Shown: piece after piece, positions 113-46,104 of the stretch
Numbering within the stretch: the first letter of the stretch is position 1
How the letters are laid out: each line of letters begins with the position of its first letter
Assembly: GCF_030695525.1 (NCBI RefSeq)
Contig: NZ_JAUYSS010000072.1
Coordinates: 62,001-126,000, forward strand
Origin: Daejeonella sp.
GTDB taxonomy: Bacteria > Bacteroidota > Bacteroidia > Sphingobacteriales > Sphingobacteriaceae
Direction: 5' to 3'
DNA: 64,000 bases
Notes under the pieces: model-generated
The model's input: the letters and a program-made list of their open reading frames with translations, nothing else
The model's database searches: none
What the model was told of the DNA's origin: nothing
Position numbers and translations under genes: made by a program

Positions 113-215
113 CTCATGGCCGCGGGGCCTAGTCCTTTTCCTGCAGCCCGCCCGGATGAACCCGTTCGGACGGGCAGAAAAGGACCATGCCGAGGAGGAA
201 CGACGAGACCATGAG
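113..215. repeat. Nested palindromic repeat
   Basis: Three arms pair around one centre. CTCATGG (113-119) pairs with CCATGAG (209-215). GTCCTTTTCCTGC (132-144) pairs with GCAGAAAAGGAC (174-185) with one bulge. GCCCG (146-150) pairs with CGGGC (171-175). The stretch is GC-rich compared with its AT-rich surroundings. It resembles the intergenic palindromic repeats common in this phylum. Its function is unknown; a structured RNA or a passive REP-like element are both possible. Confidence 0.6.
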
Positions 216-36978: not shown

Positions 36979-39900
36979 ATGCTCAGACAATACGCAATCT
37001 TCACACTACTGCTTACATTTTTAGCCACCCCACTCTTTGCTCAAAATACGGCATGGATTGAAATAAATCAGTTCTATAAAGGTGGAATAGAATTGTTGGA
37101 TCAGGGAAAATATGCCGCAGCAGCACAACAATTTGGTCGTGCAAGCAAATTTGAACAAAAAAGCTCTGTGCGGGCAGAATTAAATCCGGAATTAAGTCTG
37201 ATAAAAGAAAATTCCCAGTATTATATAGCTTTTTGTGCCCTTGAATTAGGGAACAGTGATGCAGAATCTTTATTTATCGATTTTATCAATAAGTATCCGG
37301 CAAGCAATTACACTAAACTCGCTTATTATCATCTTGGAAGATCCTATTTTTCAAAGAAAAACTACCCTAAAACCATAGAATGGCTAACAAAACTCGAAGG
37401 AAATAATATTTCCGGAAAAGAATCTTCAGAATACAGATATAAACTGGCTTATTCTTATTTCGAAATCAAAGACAATGATAAAGCAAAACCAATATTTGCT
37501 GAATTGAGAAACGAGAAAAGCACGTATAATGAGCTCTCTATCTATTACTATGCTTATATCAGCTACCTGCAAAAGGATTACAAAACTGCTTTAACTGAGT
37601 TTGAAAGACTAAAGGGGTCAAAATCTTATGAAACTAGTTATCCCTATTATATTTCGGCGATGTACTTCCTGGATCAGCGTTATGATGATGTGCTAAACTA
37701 TGCGATACCAATATTGAATTCTACTAAACAAGTCTATGAAACAGAAATGTTCCGGATAGTAGGTGCTTCATACTTTGCAAAGTCTGATTACACTAATGCA
37801 GGTGTTTATTATAAAAACTTTCAGCAAAATGATCAGGGTAAAACTCAAAACAATCAGGATAATTATCAGATTGGTTATACCTGGTATAAACTAAAAGATT
37901 ACAAGAATGCAATAGTTGAGCTTGAAAAACTGGAAACAACAGATCAGTATTTCCAGAGTGGAATGATTGCTCTGGGCGAGTCATTTCTAAAAACAGATAA
38001 TAAACAAGGTGCGAGAAGTGCTTTTTTTAAAGCCTCAAGGTTAGATTATGATAAAAAATTACAGGAAGAAGGTTTATTCAATTATGCGAAATTATCCTAT
38101 GAACTTGATTTTCATCAGGTTGCTTTAGACGCTACCCAACAATTCATTAAAACATACTCCTATTCAGAAAAGCTGGATGAAGCTAAAATTCTACTGGGTG
38201 AAATCTTGCTCAGCACAAAAAATTACAAAGATGCAATTGATATCCTCGAGAGCATTCCCAATAGAAACCGGGAGGCCAACGCTGTCTATCAAAAAGTTAC
38301 CTATTTCCGCGGACTTGAATACTATAATGAAAGGGCATTTCAGAATGGAATTTCCATGTTCATGCGCTCAAATACTAATGCGGTAGACAATGAGATCCAT
38401 GCCCTATCAACCTACTGGCTGGCAGAAGCGATGTACGAGGTCAGGAAGTTTGGTGAATCGGTTGACAACTTTGAGAAGTTTATGACTCTTCCGGCTGCAA
38501 AAAGAACCGATGTATTCAATTTTGCACATTATGCATTGGCATATGCTGCTTTTGAACATGAAAATTACAGAAAAGCAGCTACCTATTTCAAGCGATTCCT
38601 GCAAGGGAATGAAAAAGATGTGAATACTATCAATGATGCAGTACTTCGGCTAGCCGACTCCTATTTTGTATTAAAAGATTATGGTGATGCATTAGGCTAT
38701 TATGACCGGATTATCTCCTATAAAACATCTAGTGAGGATTATGCAATGTTTCAACGGGGTATGATCCAGGGTTTACAAGGACAGAATGATTTAAAAATTG
38801 CAACTCATCAATCTTTATTAAAACAATTTCCGAAGTCCAATTATTCGGATGACGCCGGATTTGAAATTGCATATACCTATTTTATCAAAGGCGATTACGA
38901 AATTGCAAAAGCTGATCTTAGTTCATTAATTGAAAAATATCCGCGAAGCAGTTATGTACCAAGAGCCCTGATCACTATTGGACTGGTTGAGTTAAATCAG
39001 GATCAGGAAGAATCTGCATTGATTACCTTTAAACGCGTAATCAGTGAATACTCTACTACTGATGAAGCCAAACTTGCACTTGAGTCTATAAAGAATATAT
39101 ATCTGCAAAGATCGGATGCATCAGGATTCCTGGATTATGCAAACAGTACAAGTATTGGAAACCTTAGTTCTTATGAACAGGACTACATTACCTTCCAGGC
39201 TGCAAACAACCGCTTTTTAAACGGTGATTATCAGGGTACTTTTGAATCTGTCAATGCCTATTTTGATAAGTTTCCAAAAGGTGTTCATGATAAACATGCC
39301 AGATTTATCAGGGCTGAAAGTCTGGTACGACTGAAACGTCCGGATGAAGCTATTCCTGATTACGAATATATACTGAACGACTGGACAAGCGATTATACAG
39401 AAAGAGCACTTATGAGTATTGCGAAAATTTACATCGCTCAGAAAAAGTATAACGAAGCCATAGTTCATTTGAAAAAACTGGAGCTAACCTCAGAGTACAA
39501 AGCAAATTACAATTTCGCAGTCAACAATCTGATGGAAGCCTATTCCAGTATGAACATGCCTGATGAAACCCTTAAATATGTCAAATTCATCAGGGAATCT
39601 GATAAATCGTCTGAAGAAGATATCTTCAGGGCAGGTCTTTATGCCGGTAAAGCGGATCTGGCTATCGGTGATACGGTTCAGGCTGTAAAAGAAATAGAAG
39701 CTATTGCAGATAAGACTCAAACTGTTACGGGCGCAGAAGCGAAGTATATCCTGGCAGATCTCCAGTATAAAAAACGTGACTATAAAAAATCACTTGCAAC
39801 TGCATTTGATCTGACTAATAAAATGCCTTCTCATGATTACTGGGTTGCAAAAACATATATCCTTATCGCAGACAACTATGTGGCAATGAAGGATATTTTT

Positions 39901-40011
39901 CAGGCAAAGAGTACTCTTCAAAGTATCATTGAAAATTATGATGTAAAAGAAGATGGTATTCTGTTGCTGGCTAAAGAAAAGTTGGATTTACTGAATAAAC
40001 GCACTAAATAA
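36979..40011 (+). CDS. Large exported TPR-repeat protein heading a TonB-module operon
   Basis: This 1010-aa protein has a signal peptide (about residues 1-22, ending LFAQ) and then almost continuous tetratricopeptide-like repeats to the end. The recurring pattern is aromatic plus KDYxxA, for example KLAYYHLGRSYFSKKNY and AYTYFIKGDYEIAKADL. It should be a long periplasmic solenoid scaffold. It has no enzymatic motif. The stop overlaps the start of the barrel gene by one base (TAATG), so the two products are probably made in a fixed ratio and may bind each other. It heads a seven-gene operon ending in folC. Confidence 0.85.
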   Translation: MLRQYAIFTLLLTFLATPLFAQNTAWIEINQFYKGGIELLDQGKYAAAAQQFGRASKFEQKSSVRAELNPELSLIKENSQYYIAFCALELGNSDAESLFIDFINKYPASNYTKLAYYHLGRSYFSKKNYPKTIEWLTKLEGNNISGKESSEYRYKLAYSYFEIKDNDKAKPIFAELRNEKSTYNELSIYYYAYISYLQKDYKTALTEFERLKGSKSYETSYPYYISAMYFLDQRYDDVLNYAIPILNSTKQVYETEMFRIVGASYFAKSDYTNAGVYYKNFQQNDQGKTQNNQDNYQIGYTWYKLKDYKNAIVELEKLETTDQYFQSGMIALGESFLKTDNKQGARSAFFKASRLDYDKKLQEEGLFNYAKLSYELDFHQVALDATQQFIKTYSYSEKLDEAKILLGEILLSTKNYKDAIDILESIPNRNREANAVYQKVTYFRGLEYYNERAFQNGISMFMRSNTNAVDNEIHALSTYWLAEAMYEVRKFGESVDNFEKFMTLPAAKRTDVFNFAHYALAYAAFEHENYRKAATYFKRFLQGNEKDVNTINDAVLRLADSYFVLKDYGDALGYYDRIISYKTSSEDYAMFQRGMIQGLQGQNDLKIATHQSLLKQFPKSNYSDDAGFEIAYTYFIKGDYEIAKADLSSLIEKYPRSSYVPRALITIGLVELNQDQEESALITFKRVISEYSTTDEAKLALESIKNIYLQRSDASGFLDYANSTSIGNLSSYEQDYITFQAANNRFLNGDYQGTFESVNAYFDKFPKGVHDKHARFIRAESLVRLKRPDEAIPDYEYILNDWTSDYTERALMSIAKIYIAQKKYNEAIVHLKKLELTSEYKANYNFAVNNLMEAYSSMNMPDETLKYVKFIRESDKSSEEDIFRAGLYAGKADLAIGDTVQAVKEIEAIADKTQTVTGAEAKYILADLQYKKRDYKKSLATAFDLTNKMPSHDYWVAKTYILIADNYVAMKDIFQAKSTLQSIIENYDVKEDGILLLAKEKLDLLNKRTK

Positions 40012-41690
40012 TGAATACAAATACTTTTAAATATTCTCTGTTCTTAAGCCTATTTAGTTTATCGGTATTGACCAGTGCGCAGGACAAAAAAGATCAGAAT
40101 CCACCGGCTCAGCAGCCCCCTGGCGGTGCAACACTTCTCGAAGAAATTGAGGTTGTACGGCCATATAAACCGGTTCTGGCAGACGCTGTTAAAATCAGAC
40201 GGAATCCTGACATGAATACAGTTGCGGCATTTAAACCTGTACTAACTTATACAATAATCGATAAAAAACTGGACCTGAATTCCAATATCAAGGAATTACA
40301 GGCACAGAAAATGGCGGATGAACTGCCAGTAGTTCAGAGCAATAACTACGCAAAAGCAGGTGCCGGAAATTTCAATACAGCATTAGGTGAGGTCTATCTC
40401 AATACAGGCAGGGATGAAGCTTTGCAGGGCGGAGCGTTTTTTAAACACCTTTCACAAAAAGGCAATCTGGATATGCAGCAATTTTCAAAACAGGAATTCG
40501 GCTTGTTTGGAAGATCAATCGCAGATGATTATGCATTAAGCGGTAGATTGATCTACGATAGAAATGCCACTAACTTTTATGGTTTTGATCCGGTTTCTTC
40601 GATACCTGCCGATATGAGTAAACAACGCTTCAGTACAATCGGTGCCGAAGCAGAGATCGCAAACAATTACTCTGAATCTTCCACATTCAATTACTCTGCA
40701 AATATCAATGCTTACCAGTTCAGTAATATTGATGATGCCCGTGAAAGTTCAGTATTACTTCAGGGATCACTTAATAAAGTTGTAAAACAATCAAACATCG
40801 GTGTAAACTCTTCAATAGATTTAACTTCTACAAAAGACCTCGCTTATAAGGTCGGAAACAATATTCTGAGAGCCAACCCGTACATAAAGCTAAGTGCAGG
40901 TGGTTTTAACCTGAATCTTGGAGCAAATATTGTTCAGGAATTCGGTACACAGTCAAGGCTTAATATTTTCCCGGCAGTTGCAGCCGAACTTCCCATCATA
41001 ATGGGATATGCTACGATATTTGCAGGTGTCAACGGAGATGTTTTAAAGACAAATCTGAGAGATCTTGCCTTTGAGAATCCTTACCTGAATAAGAATATCG
41101 GCATAAAAAATTCCCTTGAGAAAATGAATATATATGGTGGTGTAAAAGGAAATGCCAGTGCTGAATTCGGCTATAAAATAATGGCCTGGTACAAAACAAT
41201 GGAGGATCTTCAATTATTTGTAAACAGTCAGGCACTCGTAAACCGATTTGAAACTATTTACGACAATGGGCAAAGTAAGATTCTCGGACTTGAAGGTGAG
41301 ATCAATGTTAAAGCATCAGAATTTCTGAACCTGACCGCTAAGGCACAACTCTTTGATTATCAGTTGGCTTCAGAGCAAGAAGCATGGTTCAAACCTAAGC
41401 TCAGACTGATGTCAAATGCAAGGTTTCAGATAAACCGAAAAGTATTCATAGATGCAGAATTGTTATTCCAGGAAGAGGTCTACGCCAGGGTAAATGGTAC
41501 CCCTGGAACATTTACATCAAAAAGCTTAAATGGCTTCATTGACATAAGTGCCGGGGCAGAATATAAGGTGAACAATAAAATCGGGGTATATTTACGGGCT
41601 AATAACCTTACCGGACAGTCATATCAAAGATTTCTTTATTATCCAAGGCTGGGGATGAATGTATTGGGCGGAATAAATTATGCATTCTGA
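40011..41690 (+). CDS. TonB-receptor-like outer-membrane barrel without a plug domain
   Basis: This 559-aa protein has a signal peptide (about residues 1-24). The N-terminal part holds a proline/glutamine stretch and then EIEVVRPYKPVLADAVKIRR, a segment conserved in this protein family. From about residue 110 to the end, strand-rich sequence finishes with a terminal Phe, as in TonB-dependent receptors. I see no plug domain, and the length is well below the usual 700-1000 residues. It lies in an operon with ExbB, ExbD and a TonB-like gene, so energy coupling is likely. The conserved segment may replace the usual TonB box, which is speculative. Confidence 0.72.
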   Translation: MNTNTFKYSLFLSLFSLSVLTSAQDKKDQNPPAQQPPGGATLLEEIEVVRPYKPVLADAVKIRRNPDMNTVAAFKPVLTYTIIDKKLDLNSNIKELQAQKMADELPVVQSNNYAKAGAGNFNTALGEVYLNTGRDEALQGGAFFKHLSQKGNLDMQQFSKQEFGLFGRSIADDYALSGRLIYDRNATNFYGFDPVSSIPADMSKQRFSTIGAEAEIANNYSESSTFNYSANINAYQFSNIDDARESSVLLQGSLNKVVKQSNIGVNSSIDLTSTKDLAYKVGNNILRANPYIKLSAGGFNLNLGANIVQEFGTQSRLNIFPAVAAELPIIMGYATIFAGVNGDVLKTNLRDLAFENPYLNKNIGIKNSLEKMNIYGGVKGNASAEFGYKIMAWYKTMEDLQLFVNSQALVNRFETIYDNGQSKILGLEGEINVKASEFLNLTAKAQLFDYQLASEQEAWFKPKLRLMSNARFQINRKVFIDAELLFQEEVYARVNGTPGTFTSKSLNGFIDISAGAEYKVNNKIGVYLRANNLTGQSYQRFLYYPRLGMNVLGGINYAF

Positions 41691-41735
41691 TCCATTTTTT
41701 GGCTAATGAGAATTAAAAATTAACTTTACCACCCA

Positions 41736-42806
41736 ATGGAGATCGGACTTTACATCGCAGAATTGTTAGGTGAGCAGGATGAAGTAAGCGTCGCTGGTTT
41801 AGGTACTTTTTTTAAAGAAAGGGTTGCCGGTACATATGATAAACAAAGTAATTTATTTTATCCACCTTCCTACCATTTATCATTTAAAGAAGATGTCTTC
41901 AACTTTTCAGGATTAAGTGAATATATCAGCCTGAAAAGAAGCCTTAGTATTTCGTCTTCAGAAGAATTGATCAAGAAGTTCACCGAAACTATACTTGATG
42001 TACTGAATGGTTCTGATGCAGTGGAAATAAATCACCTTGGCAGCCTGTATAAAAGGAATAATCACCTGACTTTCAAGCCTTCCGACAGTTTTGGAATTGC
42101 TGATAAATTTTATGGTTTAAAACCAATTCCAGAGCTAAATGTAGCTGCAGGTCCTCTGATAGAGCAAAAAGATATCCAAACAGAGGTTCATGAAAATAAA
42201 TACAAGCCTGAAAATCCCGAATCTGAAGAAGAAGTTTTTGAACAGGCACCTAAAGCCAGGCTTGTGCCAATTCTAATGATCAGTTTTATTGCAATTATTG
42301 CATCCCTGCTTGCCTTATTCTATTTTGACAAGAGTTTCAATCATTTTGTAAAAGACATAATATACCCAAAAGCTAAACCTGCAGCTTTACCTGAAACTAT
42401 GACCGATTCAGGGGCTGCTTCTGTAGTATTAGATTCTATTGTTGAGCCGCTTGATAGTAGCGGGACTATAAAAACGGAAATTCAGGAAGAATCCAAAACT
42501 AATATTGAAGCTCAGGCAACTGTTGCATCACTTGAAGAAAAAATTCCGGCTGCCAACCAGGATATAAGCTACGAAATTATTGTTGCTGCATTTTCGAGAA
42601 AAATTGATGCAGAGACTTATATAAAGGAAATGGATTCAAGAGGTATAAAGGCAAAAATTGTTGAGAATTTACCAGGAAAAATGCTTAAAATCAGCCTTGG
42701 AACGTTTAGTGAAGAAGAGCCGGCTACTATTGAACTTAATCGAATTCAAAAAGAGATAAATAAAGATGCCTGGATAGCCAGGGTTAAACCGTTAAAAAAT
42801 CCATAA
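41736..42806 (+). CDS. HU-CCDC81-like and SPOR-domain membrane protein
   Basis: This 356-aa protein begins with two HU-like (CCDC81-type prokaryotic) domains (about residues 1-55 and 65-130; VSVAGLGTFF and VEINHLGSLYKR). An acidic linker, one transmembrane helix (about 176-197) and a disordered segment follow, then a C-terminal SPOR domain (about 283-352; YEIIVAAFSRKIDAETYIKE). SPOR domains bind denuded peptidoglycan, so the tail should be periplasmic and the HU-like part cytoplasmic. DNA binding by the HU-like part is possible but unproven. It lies two bases before exbB. Confidence 0.83.
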   Translation: MEIGLYIAELLGEQDEVSVAGLGTFFKERVAGTYDKQSNLFYPPSYHLSFKEDVFNFSGLSEYISLKRSLSISSSEELIKKFTETILDVLNGSDAVEINHLGSLYKRNNHLTFKPSDSFGIADKFYGLKPIPELNVAAGPLIEQKDIQTEVHENKYKPENPESEEEVFEQAPKARLVPILMISFIAIIASLLALFYFDKSFNHFVKDIIYPKAKPAALPETMTDSGAASVVLDSIVEPLDSSGTIKTEIQEESKTNIEAQATVASLEEKIPAANQDISYEIIVAAFSRKIDAETYIKEMDSRGIKAKIVENLPGKMLKISLGTFSEEEPATIELNRIQKEINKDAWIARVKPLKNP

Positions 42807-42808
42807 GA

Positions 42809-43507
42809 ATGTTATTACTGCAAATTGACACATTAAACCCGGTAGCTGATGCCGCAGCTTCAACCATTCAAACAATGCCAACCAGTGAAGAGTTAAGGTT
42901 CATTGAGCTCCTGTTCAAAGGGGGCTGGGTAATGTTGCCGCTCGCAATTCTGGCTTTTATTGGTCTGGTCATTTTTGTGGAACGATATTTAACTATACGC
43001 AAGGCCTCCAAAGATGAAATGAATCTTATGTTACAAGTTAAGCAGAGTATTAAATCGGCTAAACTTGAGTCTGCACTCGCTATTTGCAGAAACAGTAACA
43101 CGCCTTTGGGAAGAATGCTGGAGAAAGGTTTGCTGCGTATCGGAAGGCCAATAAAAGATATTGAAGGTGCTATTGAAAACGTAGGAAAACTGGAAGTATC
43201 GAAGCTCGAAAAAAACATAAGCATACTTGGTATTATTGCCGGAATTGCACCAATGCTCGGTTTCGTTGGTACTATTATTGGTGTAATTACGATCTTCCAT
43301 GAGGTTTCTGTAAAGGGAATTATTGAAATAGGAACCATATCGGGAGGTCTATATGTGAAAATGATCACTTCTGCAACCGGATTGATTATTGGAATAATTG
43401 CTTATGTTCTATATCATATATTGAATATTATGGTAGACCGGATTATCCTTAAAATGGAAACCGATGCTATTGAATTTATTGACTTGTTAGAGGAGCCCGG
43501 CAAATGA
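42809..43507 (+). CDS. exbB: MotA/TolQ/ExbB-type proton channel protein
   Basis: This 232-aa inner-membrane protein has a first transmembrane segment near residues 35-57, a cytoplasmic loop, and two helices near 138-160 and 175-205. The motif ISILGIIAGIAPMLGFVGTI is the conserved channel segment. With ExbD it forms the proton-driven motor that energises TonB. It overlaps exbD by four bases. TolQ is an alternative, but the TonB-like gene next to it favours an ExbB role. Confidence 0.88.
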   Translation: MLLLQIDTLNPVADAAASTIQTMPTSEELRFIELLFKGGWVMLPLAILAFIGLVIFVERYLTIRKASKDEMNLMLQVKQSIKSAKLESALAICRNSNTPLGRMLEKGLLRIGRPIKDIEGAIENVGKLEVSKLEKNISILGIIAGIAPMLGFVGTIIGVITIFHEVSVKGIIEIGTISGGLYVKMITSATGLIIGIIAYVLYHILNIMVDRIILKMETDAIEFIDLLEEPGK

Positions 43508-43902
43508 ATTTAAGAAAAAGACAAAGAGGGCACGTTGAGGTTCACACATCAGCATTGAATGACATCATGTTTTTCCTGCTGCTGTTTTTTTTGCTGGCAT
43601 CAGCTGTTGCCAACCCAAATGTGGTTAAGTTATTTTTACCAAGATCAAATTCCGGACAATCCATTCCTCAGAAAACGATCAATGTATCAATAACAAAAGA
43701 TCTGGAATATTTTGTTGAGAAAAAACAGGTTGACGCGGCAAATCTCTTTCAAAGCATAGAAACCTATCAAAAGGCAGCACCTGACTTAACCATCATATTG
43801 TATGCCGATCGCAGCATTGCCATTGAAAATGTGATCGAATTGACCGATATTGCAAATAAACTAAAGGTAAAACTTGTTTTAGCGACAGAAACAAAGAAAT
43901 GA
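43504..43902 (+). CDS. exbD: ExbD/TolR-family biopolymer transport protein
   Basis: This 132-aa protein has a cytoplasmic N-terminus, one transmembrane helix (about residues 20-40) and a periplasmic domain. The conserved proton-carrying aspartate lies in ALNDIMFFLLLFF, near the start of the helix. It overlaps both neighbours by four bases (ATGA), giving tight translational coupling exbB-exbD-tonB. It partners ExbB in the motor complex. Confidence 0.9.
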   Translation: MNLRKRQRGHVEVHTSALNDIMFFLLLFFLLASAVANPNVVKLFLPRSNSGQSIPQKTINVSITKDLEYFVEKKQVDAANLFQSIETYQKAAPDLTIILYADRSIAIENVIELTDIANKLKVKLVLATETKK

Positions 43903-44720
43903 TCGAATACCGTCGACAGGAAGAAAATAATTACCCGAAAGCATATGCCGTTTCCAGCGGTATAATGCTTGCTTTTTTGGTGATCAGTTATTTTATTATC
44001 GCCAGCCGAGTTGAGCCTGATACCGGTACAGGTGGAATAATTGTGAATTATGGCACTTCTGAGTTCGGCATGGGCGATGATTATATGAGCGTTGAAGAGC
44101 CTTCTAGCTCGCCCGATGCGAACAGCACTTCTCCTGATAAGGTAATTATGGATAAAACTACTTCCACGGAGTCCAATTCGGAAGTTTCTGACAAAGCAAT
44201 TGCCACCCAGGATAATGAAGATGCCCCCGAAGTTATAACAAAAGAAAAGAGTAGTGCGAAAGCTCCAGCTGTCACTACTCCTGCGAAAGAAAATAAACCT
44301 GTTGTGAATCAAAATGCCCTCTACAAGGGTAAACAGAACGATGGATTAGGAAAAGGTGATGGTACAGGTACAGTTGCTGGAAATCAGGGAAGTACTAATG
44401 GCGACCCATTATCGCCGGATTATGGTGAAGGAGGGTCAGGCAATGGCCCCTATAGTCTCGACCTGAAGAGCCGCAGATTCACTAATCTGACCCCTCCTCA
44501 AGATAATGGACAGAAATATGGCAGAGTAGCTGTACGGATTTTTGTAGATAAAAATGGAGTCGTGGTAAACGCCATTCCGGGAGTAAAAGGCACAACTTTA
44601 TCTGACAAAGAAATATGGGAAAAATGCCGTCTGGCTGTCATCGGATCTTCATTGAATAAGCTTGAATCTGCTCCAGAGGTACAGATTGGCGTGGTTATGT
44701 TCAACTTCAAGGTAAAATAA
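43899..44720 (+). CDS. TonB-like energy transducer
   Basis: This 273-aa protein has a short cytoplasmic N-terminus, one transmembrane helix (about residues 18-37), a long Ser/Asp/Gly-rich periplasmic linker (about 40-185) and a small C-terminal domain (about 190-273; GRVAVRIFVDKNGVVVNAI) of the TonB/TolA type. The linker lacks the Pro-Glu and Pro-Lys repeats of classical TonB. It should carry force from the ExbB-ExbD motor to an outer-membrane partner, probably the barrel encoded three genes upstream. Confidence 0.8.
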   Translation: MIEYRRQEENNYPKAYAVSSGIMLAFLVISYFIIASRVEPDTGTGGIIVNYGTSEFGMGDDYMSVEEPSSSPDANSTSPDKVIMDKTTSTESNSEVSDKAIATQDNEDAPEVITKEKSSAKAPAVTTPAKENKPVVNQNALYKGKQNDGLGKGDGTGTVAGNQGSTNGDPLSPDYGEGGSGNGPYSLDLKSRRFTNLTPPQDNGQKYGRVAVRIFVDKNGVVVNAIPGVKGTTLSDKEIWEKCRLAVIGSSLNKLESAPEVQIGVVMFNFKVK

Positions 44721-44742: not shown

Positions 44743-46104
44743 ATGAATATGCCTGAAAATACCTCTGATAATCTTAAGCCTGAGGGGCCCTTTAATTCTT
44801 ACTCAAATGTAATTTCCTATTTATACTCCCGTCTTCCGATGTTTTCGCGGCTGGGTGCTGATGCAATAAAGGCTGATCTGATCAATACCGAAAAATTTTG
44901 CACCCATCTTTCTGAACCTCAGAATACATTTAAATCGGTACATATTGGTGGAACCAATGGAAAGGGCTCTTCATCACATATGCTAGCGGCAATCCTCCAA
45001 ACTGCCGGTTATAAAACCGGTTTATACACTTCTCCACACCTTAAAGACTTCAGGGAAAGGATCCGCATCAATGGTGAAATGATTTCAGAACTTGATGTTT
45101 TGCAATTTGTGAACGATAATTATGAATTTATTGAAAGACTTGAACCCTCATTTTTTGAAGTTACTGTCGCTATGGCTTTCCATCATTTTGCGATCAATAA
45201 AGTCGATATTGCAGTAATTGAAGTTGGCTTAGGAGGAAGGCTCGACTCAACCAATGTAATCCATCCGCAACTTTCCCTGATCAGCAATATTGCATTCGAC
45301 CACATGAATATTCTGGGAAATACACTTCTACTTATAGCCGGGGAAAAGGCCGGAATCATAAAAAAAGAAGTACCGGTAATCATCAGTCAGAAACAGGATG
45401 AGGTAGAAGACATTTTTATAAAAAAGGCAGCAGAACAGCAATCCAAAATAGTATTTGCAAGTGAAGTATGGCTTATAAAAAAGAGTAGTCCTCAACCAAA
45501 TTTACCTGAACTGCTAAAAGTAGACATCAAACAGAAAAATGATTCAGTTCCATCCTATTTCGGCTTTAATACACTGGAATTGGATCTGACAGGAATCTAC
45601 CAGTTAAAAAACCTTGCCGGTGTATTAAGCGCTATCAAGCAGTTACACGATTTTGGCTATCAAATAGCCGAGCAAAACATTATTGATGCATTAAGGCAGG
45701 TAAAGGCCCTGACAGGGCTAATGGGGCGTTGGCAGATGTTACAGAAAGCTCCTTTAGTTATCTGTGATACCGGACACAATGAAGATGGGATTAGGGAAGT
45801 GCTAAAAAATATAGAACAATGCTCCTTTGATCAGCTTCATATGGTTATCGGAATGCTCAGCGATAAAGACAGCTCCGGAATTTTGAAAATGCTTCCTAAA
45901 AATGCAAAATATTACTTCTGTCAACCTGATTTACCAAGAGCAAAACCGGCAATTGAGTTAAGAAATGAAGCCCAAGCCTATAATTTGCATGGTAAATATT
46001 ATTCTTCAGTATCAGATGCGCTGGAGACAGCAAAAAAAAATGCTGGCAAGAATGATCTGATCTTTGTTGGTGGCAGTACATTTGTGGTTGCAGAAGTGGT
46101 TTAA
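44743..46104 (+). CDS. folC: Folylpolyglutamate synthase / dihydrofolate synthase
   Basis: This 453-aa Mur-ligase-fold enzyme adds glutamate to dihydropteroate and to folates. The P-loop IGGTNGKGSSS (about residues 68-77) and LYTSPHLKDFRERIRING are diagnostic. IEVGLGGRLDSTNVI and AFDHMNILG follow. It starts 22 bases after the TonB-like gene and is likely the last gene of the operon, although its job (folate) is unrelated. It ends near a terminator that mainly serves the convergent SDR gene. Confidence 0.93.
   Translation: MNMPENTSDNLKPEGPFNSYSNVISYLYSRLPMFSRLGADAIKADLINTEKFCTHLSEPQNTFKSVHIGGTNGKGSSSHMLAAILQTAGYKTGLYTSPHLKDFRERIRINGEMISELDVLQFVNDNYEFIERLEPSFFEVTVAMAFHHFAINKVDIAVIEVGLGGRLDSTNVIHPQLSLISNIAFDHMNILGNTLLLIAGEKAGIIKKEVPVIISQKQDEVEDIFIKKAAEQQSKIVFASEVWLIKKSSPQPNLPELLKVDIKQKNDSVPSYFGFNTLELDLTGIYQLKNLAGVLSAIKQLHDFGYQIAEQNIIDALRQVKALTGLMGRWQMLQKAPLVICDTGHNEDGIREVLKNIEQCSFDQLHMVIGMLSDKDSSGILKMLPKNAKYYFCQPDLPRAKPAIELRNEAQAYNLHGKYYSSVSDALETAKKNAGKNDLIFVGGSTFVVAEVV

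Follow-up and report, generated by a model that had tools for sequence, protein, structure and literature searches.

Two classes of proton-driven outer-membrane machine have been described, namely the Ton system, with receptors such as FhuA, BtuB and FpvA, and Tol-Pal (TolQRA-TolB-Pal-CpoB). In the SLAM exporters of surface lipoproteins, TPR repeats and a smaller barrel form one protein and no motor is involved. SPOR domains are expected to bind septal peptidoglycan. The question addressed here is how the outer membrane is attached and constricted in Bacteroidota, a dominant gut phylum, which is without Tol-Pal. A 2025 study found no tol-pal loci in Bacteroidetes, proposed PorE as a tether and left other stabilising systems still to be revealed (PMC12204202). 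We have analysed a six-gene operon within a window of 64,000 nucleotides (the whole stretch of DNA under analysis, from Daejeonella sp.), which combines an ExbB-ExbD motor and a TonB-like protein with a TPR protein, a predicted plugless barrel and an HU/SPOR membrane protein.

Results and Discussion

The operon (36979-44720, plus strand) is preceded by pyrR and pyrB and followed by folC, which is probably not a component of the machine (Table 1). A previous, sequence-only reading had described six coupled genes with mostly overlapping or nearly touching junctions, and all six ORFs were indeed located at the claimed position and strand. The stop codon of the TPR gene and the start codon of the barrel gene share one base (TAATG), and the ExbB/ExbD and ExbD/TonB-like junctions overlap by four bases each. 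A scan for sigma-70 promoters gave nothing better than chance level. The order TPR-barrel-HU/SPOR-ExbB-ExbD-TonB-folC recurs in 77 of the 80 named Sphingobacteriaceae-level loci and thus is not a product of chance; the three exceptions are incomplete stretches.

Table 1: Positions of the operon genes, of selected parts and of folC within the window.
Feature	Position	Strand	Description and basis
TPR gene	36979-40011	+	1010-aa secreted TPR solenoid; Pfam TPR repeats
Barrel gene	40011-41690	+	559 aa; predicted plugless TonB-dependent-transporter-type β-barrel; sequence and structure prediction
Putative TonB-box region, barrel residues 43-68 (LEEIEVVRPYKPVLADAVKIRRNPDM)	40137-40214	+	Disordered in the model; conservation per site
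HU/SPOR gene	41736-42806	+	356 aa; two HU-CCDC81 domains (residues 2-121), transmembrane window 176-194, SPOR 279-347
SPOR domain of the HU/SPOR protein	42570-42776	+	Pfam
ExbB/TolQ motor subunit, module-type	42809-43507	+	Pfam MotA_ExbB
ExbD/TolR motor subunit	43504-43902	+	Pfam ExbD
TonB-like transducer	43899-44720	+	Transmembrane helix 12-35, disordered linker, TonB C-terminal domain 183-273 (model)
folC	44743-46104	+	Conserved neighbour of the motor half

The TPR protein looks soluble and periplasmic because it possesses neither an early cysteine, as a lipobox would require, nor a transmembrane window, and together with the Pfam repeats this bears out its earlier description as a periplasmic solenoid. 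Its similarity to PorW/SprE is weak (45.7 bits against a cut-off of 250), and an assignment as YbgF/CpoB, BamD or PorW was rejected, the matches being generic repeat similarity. In the HU/SPOR protein, Pfam recognises HU-CCDC81 domains 1 and 2 as well as a SPOR domain, the latter scoring just above the cut-off (23.5 bits versus 21) and being confirmed by Pfam in distant members; a single transmembrane window makes it a membrane protein, as had been proposed. The HU-like and SPOR parts, fused in the window, are separate adjacent genes at one locus (L189:9366-11395). The joining of HU-like domains, presumably cytoplasmic, to a septal SPOR domain hints at a link between chromosome and envelope.

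The assignment of the two motor subunits was confirmed by Pfam with 76.1 bits for MotA_ExbB and 78.8 bits for ExbD. No credible Pfam match was obtained for the TonB-like protein, and it was the model that supported its naming, with an N-terminal helix and a long disordered linker leading to a C-terminal domain for which TonB domains are the nearest solved structures (VIA-align Z 9.1, rmsd 2.5, 78 residues aligned; Z 7.2 for TolA domain III). Distant members of this protein match Pfam TonB_C. The genome carries a second, separate ExbB for general Ton work, and the ExbB of the window shares only 23% identity with this paralogue but 31–37% with the corresponding ExbBs of the farthest families, from which we conclude that the motor is an old separate lineage. 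Clusters of TPR, barrel, SPOR and TonB genes without ExbB and ExbD also occur (L192-L195, L199-L201, L204, L207), and there the motor must be supplied from elsewhere.

Pfam assigns no family to the barrel protein, and neither Plug nor CarboxypepD_reg was found. The AlphaFold2 model, built on 60 relatives, leaves residues 20-109 as a disordered tail and forms a barrel with about 22 strands from residue 113 onwards (mean pLDDT 75). With this model Foldseek found FpvA and BtuB (E 1e-17), and VIA-align aligned 437 residues to FhuA (Z 21.4, rmsd 3.1), while the sequence profile matched FepA over 123 residues (E 2e-4) and thereby FepA-type receptors. A plug domain in the predicted structure had been named beforehand as the result that would speak against a plugless barrel, and none was seen in the Pfam Plug search or in the model. 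As judged from these predictions, the protein is a TonB-dependent transporter (TBDT)-type barrel that has lost its plug or is devoid of it. PG0534 of Porphyromonas gingivalis was considered as a relative and rejected, since it has 92 kDa (PMC5445135) compared to about 560 residues of the plugless barrel.

Within the disordered tail, residues 43-68 (LEEIEVVRPYKPVLADAVKIRRNPDM) are the most conserved part of the barrel protein. Among 60 Sphingobacteriaceae-level sequences they reach a mean of 3.8 bits per site, whereas the barrel averages 2.8 and the preceding linker 1.5, and the top-ranked nine-residue conservation windows fall within them. Sphingobacteriaceae show a conserved EEIEVVRPYKP here, and deep-branching families carry IELPDFVITG, LELPEFIVTG or PIDLQEFVITG at the equivalent position directly behind the signal peptide. 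This LPDFVITG-type segment has the form of a TonB box, and the TonB-like protein may bind the putative box of the window's barrel. Some Sphingobacteriaceae genomes contain a further TPR gene, unlinked to the first, that encodes the signal peptide and box of the barrel at its N-terminus (L033-L038, e.g. L037:826-3432). In one such fusion (genome G001), a segment matching barrel residues 22-64 (67% identity) is followed by one matching TPR residues 244-1009 (55% identity), and similar fusions are present in five other loci read. Thus, the box behaves like an independent module, and TPR protein and barrel are functionally tied. A second box match was seen in eight genomes, seven of which lack SprA.

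To follow the gene set through the phylum, a first barrel profile (A1), which gave 149 of 296 genomes and weak C-terminal matches outside the class, was replaced by a profile from a wider, phylum-wide alignment (A4), a strong match being defined as E 1e-25 or better. The barrel is present in all 81 genomes sampled in the order, and the A4 profile gave a strong match in 195 of the 296 genomes including 75 of the 76 of the class; where green sulfur bacteria matched A4 weakly, we attribute this to cross-matching with ordinary TBDTs. G341, the one genome sampled from the class that gave no strong match, likewise lacks a SprA match above the cut-off. In all 19 class-level loci from outside the order the TPR gene lies next to the barrel gene, with HU/SPOR beside them in seven and the full motor in three. 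Outside the class, the survey of gene order suggested by the earlier reading found the TPR, barrel, SPOR and TonB genes together in most of 29 loci (TPR in 22, SPOR in 27, TonB in 28), with ExbB-ExbD in 18. The module, which we write as TPR-barrel-(HU/)SPOR-[ExbB-ExbD]-TonB, is therefore ancient and recurs in most sampled families of the phylum. Separate recurrence of the genes had been named as a result that would count against a joint machine. The genes do not scatter in this way, but several Bacteroidia families have the operon split into TPR-barrel and ExbB-ExbD-TonB(-folC), so that linkage is not universal. Genomes with a split operon carry a module-type ExbB elsewhere, accompanied by ExbD and frequently also by TonB; three such loci (L210, L218, L222) still have folC beside the motor half. 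In one deep group (L098:2600-6752, L203:3553-7911) the barrel gene is directly preceded by genes for FtsK, a small secreted protein and LPG_synthase_TM, with FtsK three genes upstream; the small secreted protein of L203 is weakly LolA-like.

Full-length TolB was found in 57 of the 296 genomes, all belonging to family f17 and all without a strong barrel match, and in none of the 195 genomes with a strong barrel, which has to be read as one clade contrast, and a Fisher statistic on it ignores phylogeny. Family f17 represents the green sulfur bacteria, as the FMO protein was present in the eight f17 genomes tested; one of these FMO-bearing genomes has a TolQ/ExbB-like gene about 3.5 kb from tolB. 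In 44 of the 296 genomes both full-length TolB and a strong barrel match are missing. The window's own genome did not match TolB_N and has no TolB of full length, and there is no OmpA/Pal gene for a Pal lipoprotein among the genes of the operon.

We consider it plausible, with slightly less than even confidence, that a dedicated Ton-type machine pulls the plugless barrel and/or its TPR partner while the SPOR protein ties the complex to septal peptidoglycan, making the whole an analogue of Tol-Pal. Powered by the proton gradient, ExbB-ExbD would drive the TonB-like protein, the C-terminal domain of which would grip the box on the flexible tail of the barrel. As there is no plug to remove, the force would have to act directly on the barrel or else on the nearby TPR solenoid held by the tail, without any plug opening. 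The HU/SPOR protein would place the complex at division sites via septal peptidoglycan, and the outcome would be a coupler of inner membrane, peptidoglycan and outer membrane that holds or draws in the latter. Septal localisation, pulling and the envelope role are what we infer for the machine, and for the localisation the SPOR domain is only suggestive. The FtsK gene upstream of the barrel in one deep group would suit a coupler. Against it stand the non-adjacent SPOR gene in 12 of the 19 class-level loci from outside the order, the narrow margin of the window's SPOR score, and the fact that the TolB contrast comes from a single clade, with 44 genomes having neither TolB nor module barrel by the above criteria; moreover, for plain anchoring a 22-strand barrel looks like an unusual solution. 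Furthermore, Bacteroidota may use PorE as tether between outer membrane and peptidoglycan (PMC12204202). In the literature searched we found no phenotype, localisation, interaction or experiment for these genes; two papers on the Bacteroidota BAM (PMC12611786, PMC12578637) and the TamL paper do not mention the operon under the terms searched, and the main text of Klein 2012, consulted for essentiality, contains no TPR/TonB term.

The main rival, a serious one that we regard as somewhat less likely than the coupler, is energised export or transport, in which the TPR protein would cap the open barrel and receive a cargo (surface lipoprotein, lipid, polysaccharide or protein) and TonB would pull the box to shift the cap and allow the cargo to pass. 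An uncapped 22-strand barrel would probably be a large open pore, for which a cap is expected, and the constant neighbourhood of TPR and barrel in the class-level loci, the fusion of the box to the TPR paralogue as well as the LPG_synthase_TM gene and the weak LolA-like match ahead of the barrel in one deep group would all suit an exporter. However, in seven of the 29 loci from outside the class the cluster retains barrel, SPOR and TonB but has no TPR gene, a conserved SPOR partner is unexpected for a transporter and no constant cargo gene was found.

That the module belongs to the type IX secretion system (T9SS) is very improbable. The weak PorW/SprE similarity of the TPR protein and the joint absence of SprA and barrel from green sulfur bacteria and G341 would fit such a role, but SprA is absent from ten genomes that keep the barrel (eight of the window's family and two of f11), and therefore the module is not a T9SS part; this retention already largely refutes T9SS membership. 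Families f12, f28 and f37 conversely have SprA and no strong barrel match. Hardly credible at all is ordinary nutrient uptake by a TBDT, degenerate or specialised, that is served by its own Ton motor, even if TBDT fold, putative TonB box and ExbBD-TonB come together in one operon, as there is no plug for substrate gating, the general Ton work has its separate ExbB, and nearly every genome of the class holds one conserved copy accompanied by SPOR and TPR partners. On the same grounds the earlier claim that this would not be ordinary nutrient uptake is favoured.

Conclusion

Going beyond the coupler itself, we tentatively suggest that Bacteroidota replaced Tol-Pal by a Ton-type motor, targeted through SPOR, that draws the outer membrane inward via the box of a plugless barrel and its TPR partner. 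If true, Ton and Tol-Pal would be joined by a third class of proton-driven outer-membrane machine, and a TBDT could be converted from a gated transporter into something that a motor simply pulls. As the gene set provides a defined motor, a target and a candidate force-bearing peptide, the envelope question becomes directly testable.

With the Ton system (FhuA, BtuB, FpvA) the module has in common the ExbB-ExbD motor, the TonB C-terminal fold, the box and the barrel fold, the window's barrel being predicted to share the 22 strands of TonB-dependent transporters and its family sharing, by sequence, their TonB box. In contrast, their N-terminal plug is absent, a conserved TPR solenoid and a SPOR protein are added and the motor belongs to a different lineage from the general Ton motor. 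Tol-Pal resembles the module in having an ExbB/TolQ-type motor with its own transducer as well as a TPR protein, and a link to peptidoglycan would be expected in the module through SPOR. The module is absent where full-length TolB is present, and its genomes lack full-length TolB and its cluster Pal; its outer-membrane partner is an integral barrel and its transducer domain is nearer to TonB than to TolA. PorE, proposed as a CpoB-TolB-Pal fusion tether of Bacteroidetes (PMC12204202), is likewise a candidate answer to the missing Tol-Pal, but it is a lipoprotein without its own motor, whereas the module has motor and barrel. Finally, the SLAM exporters of surface lipoproteins also pair TPR with an outer-membrane barrel, but in the module TPR and TBDT-type barrel are encoded by separate genes and accompanied by a Ton motor.
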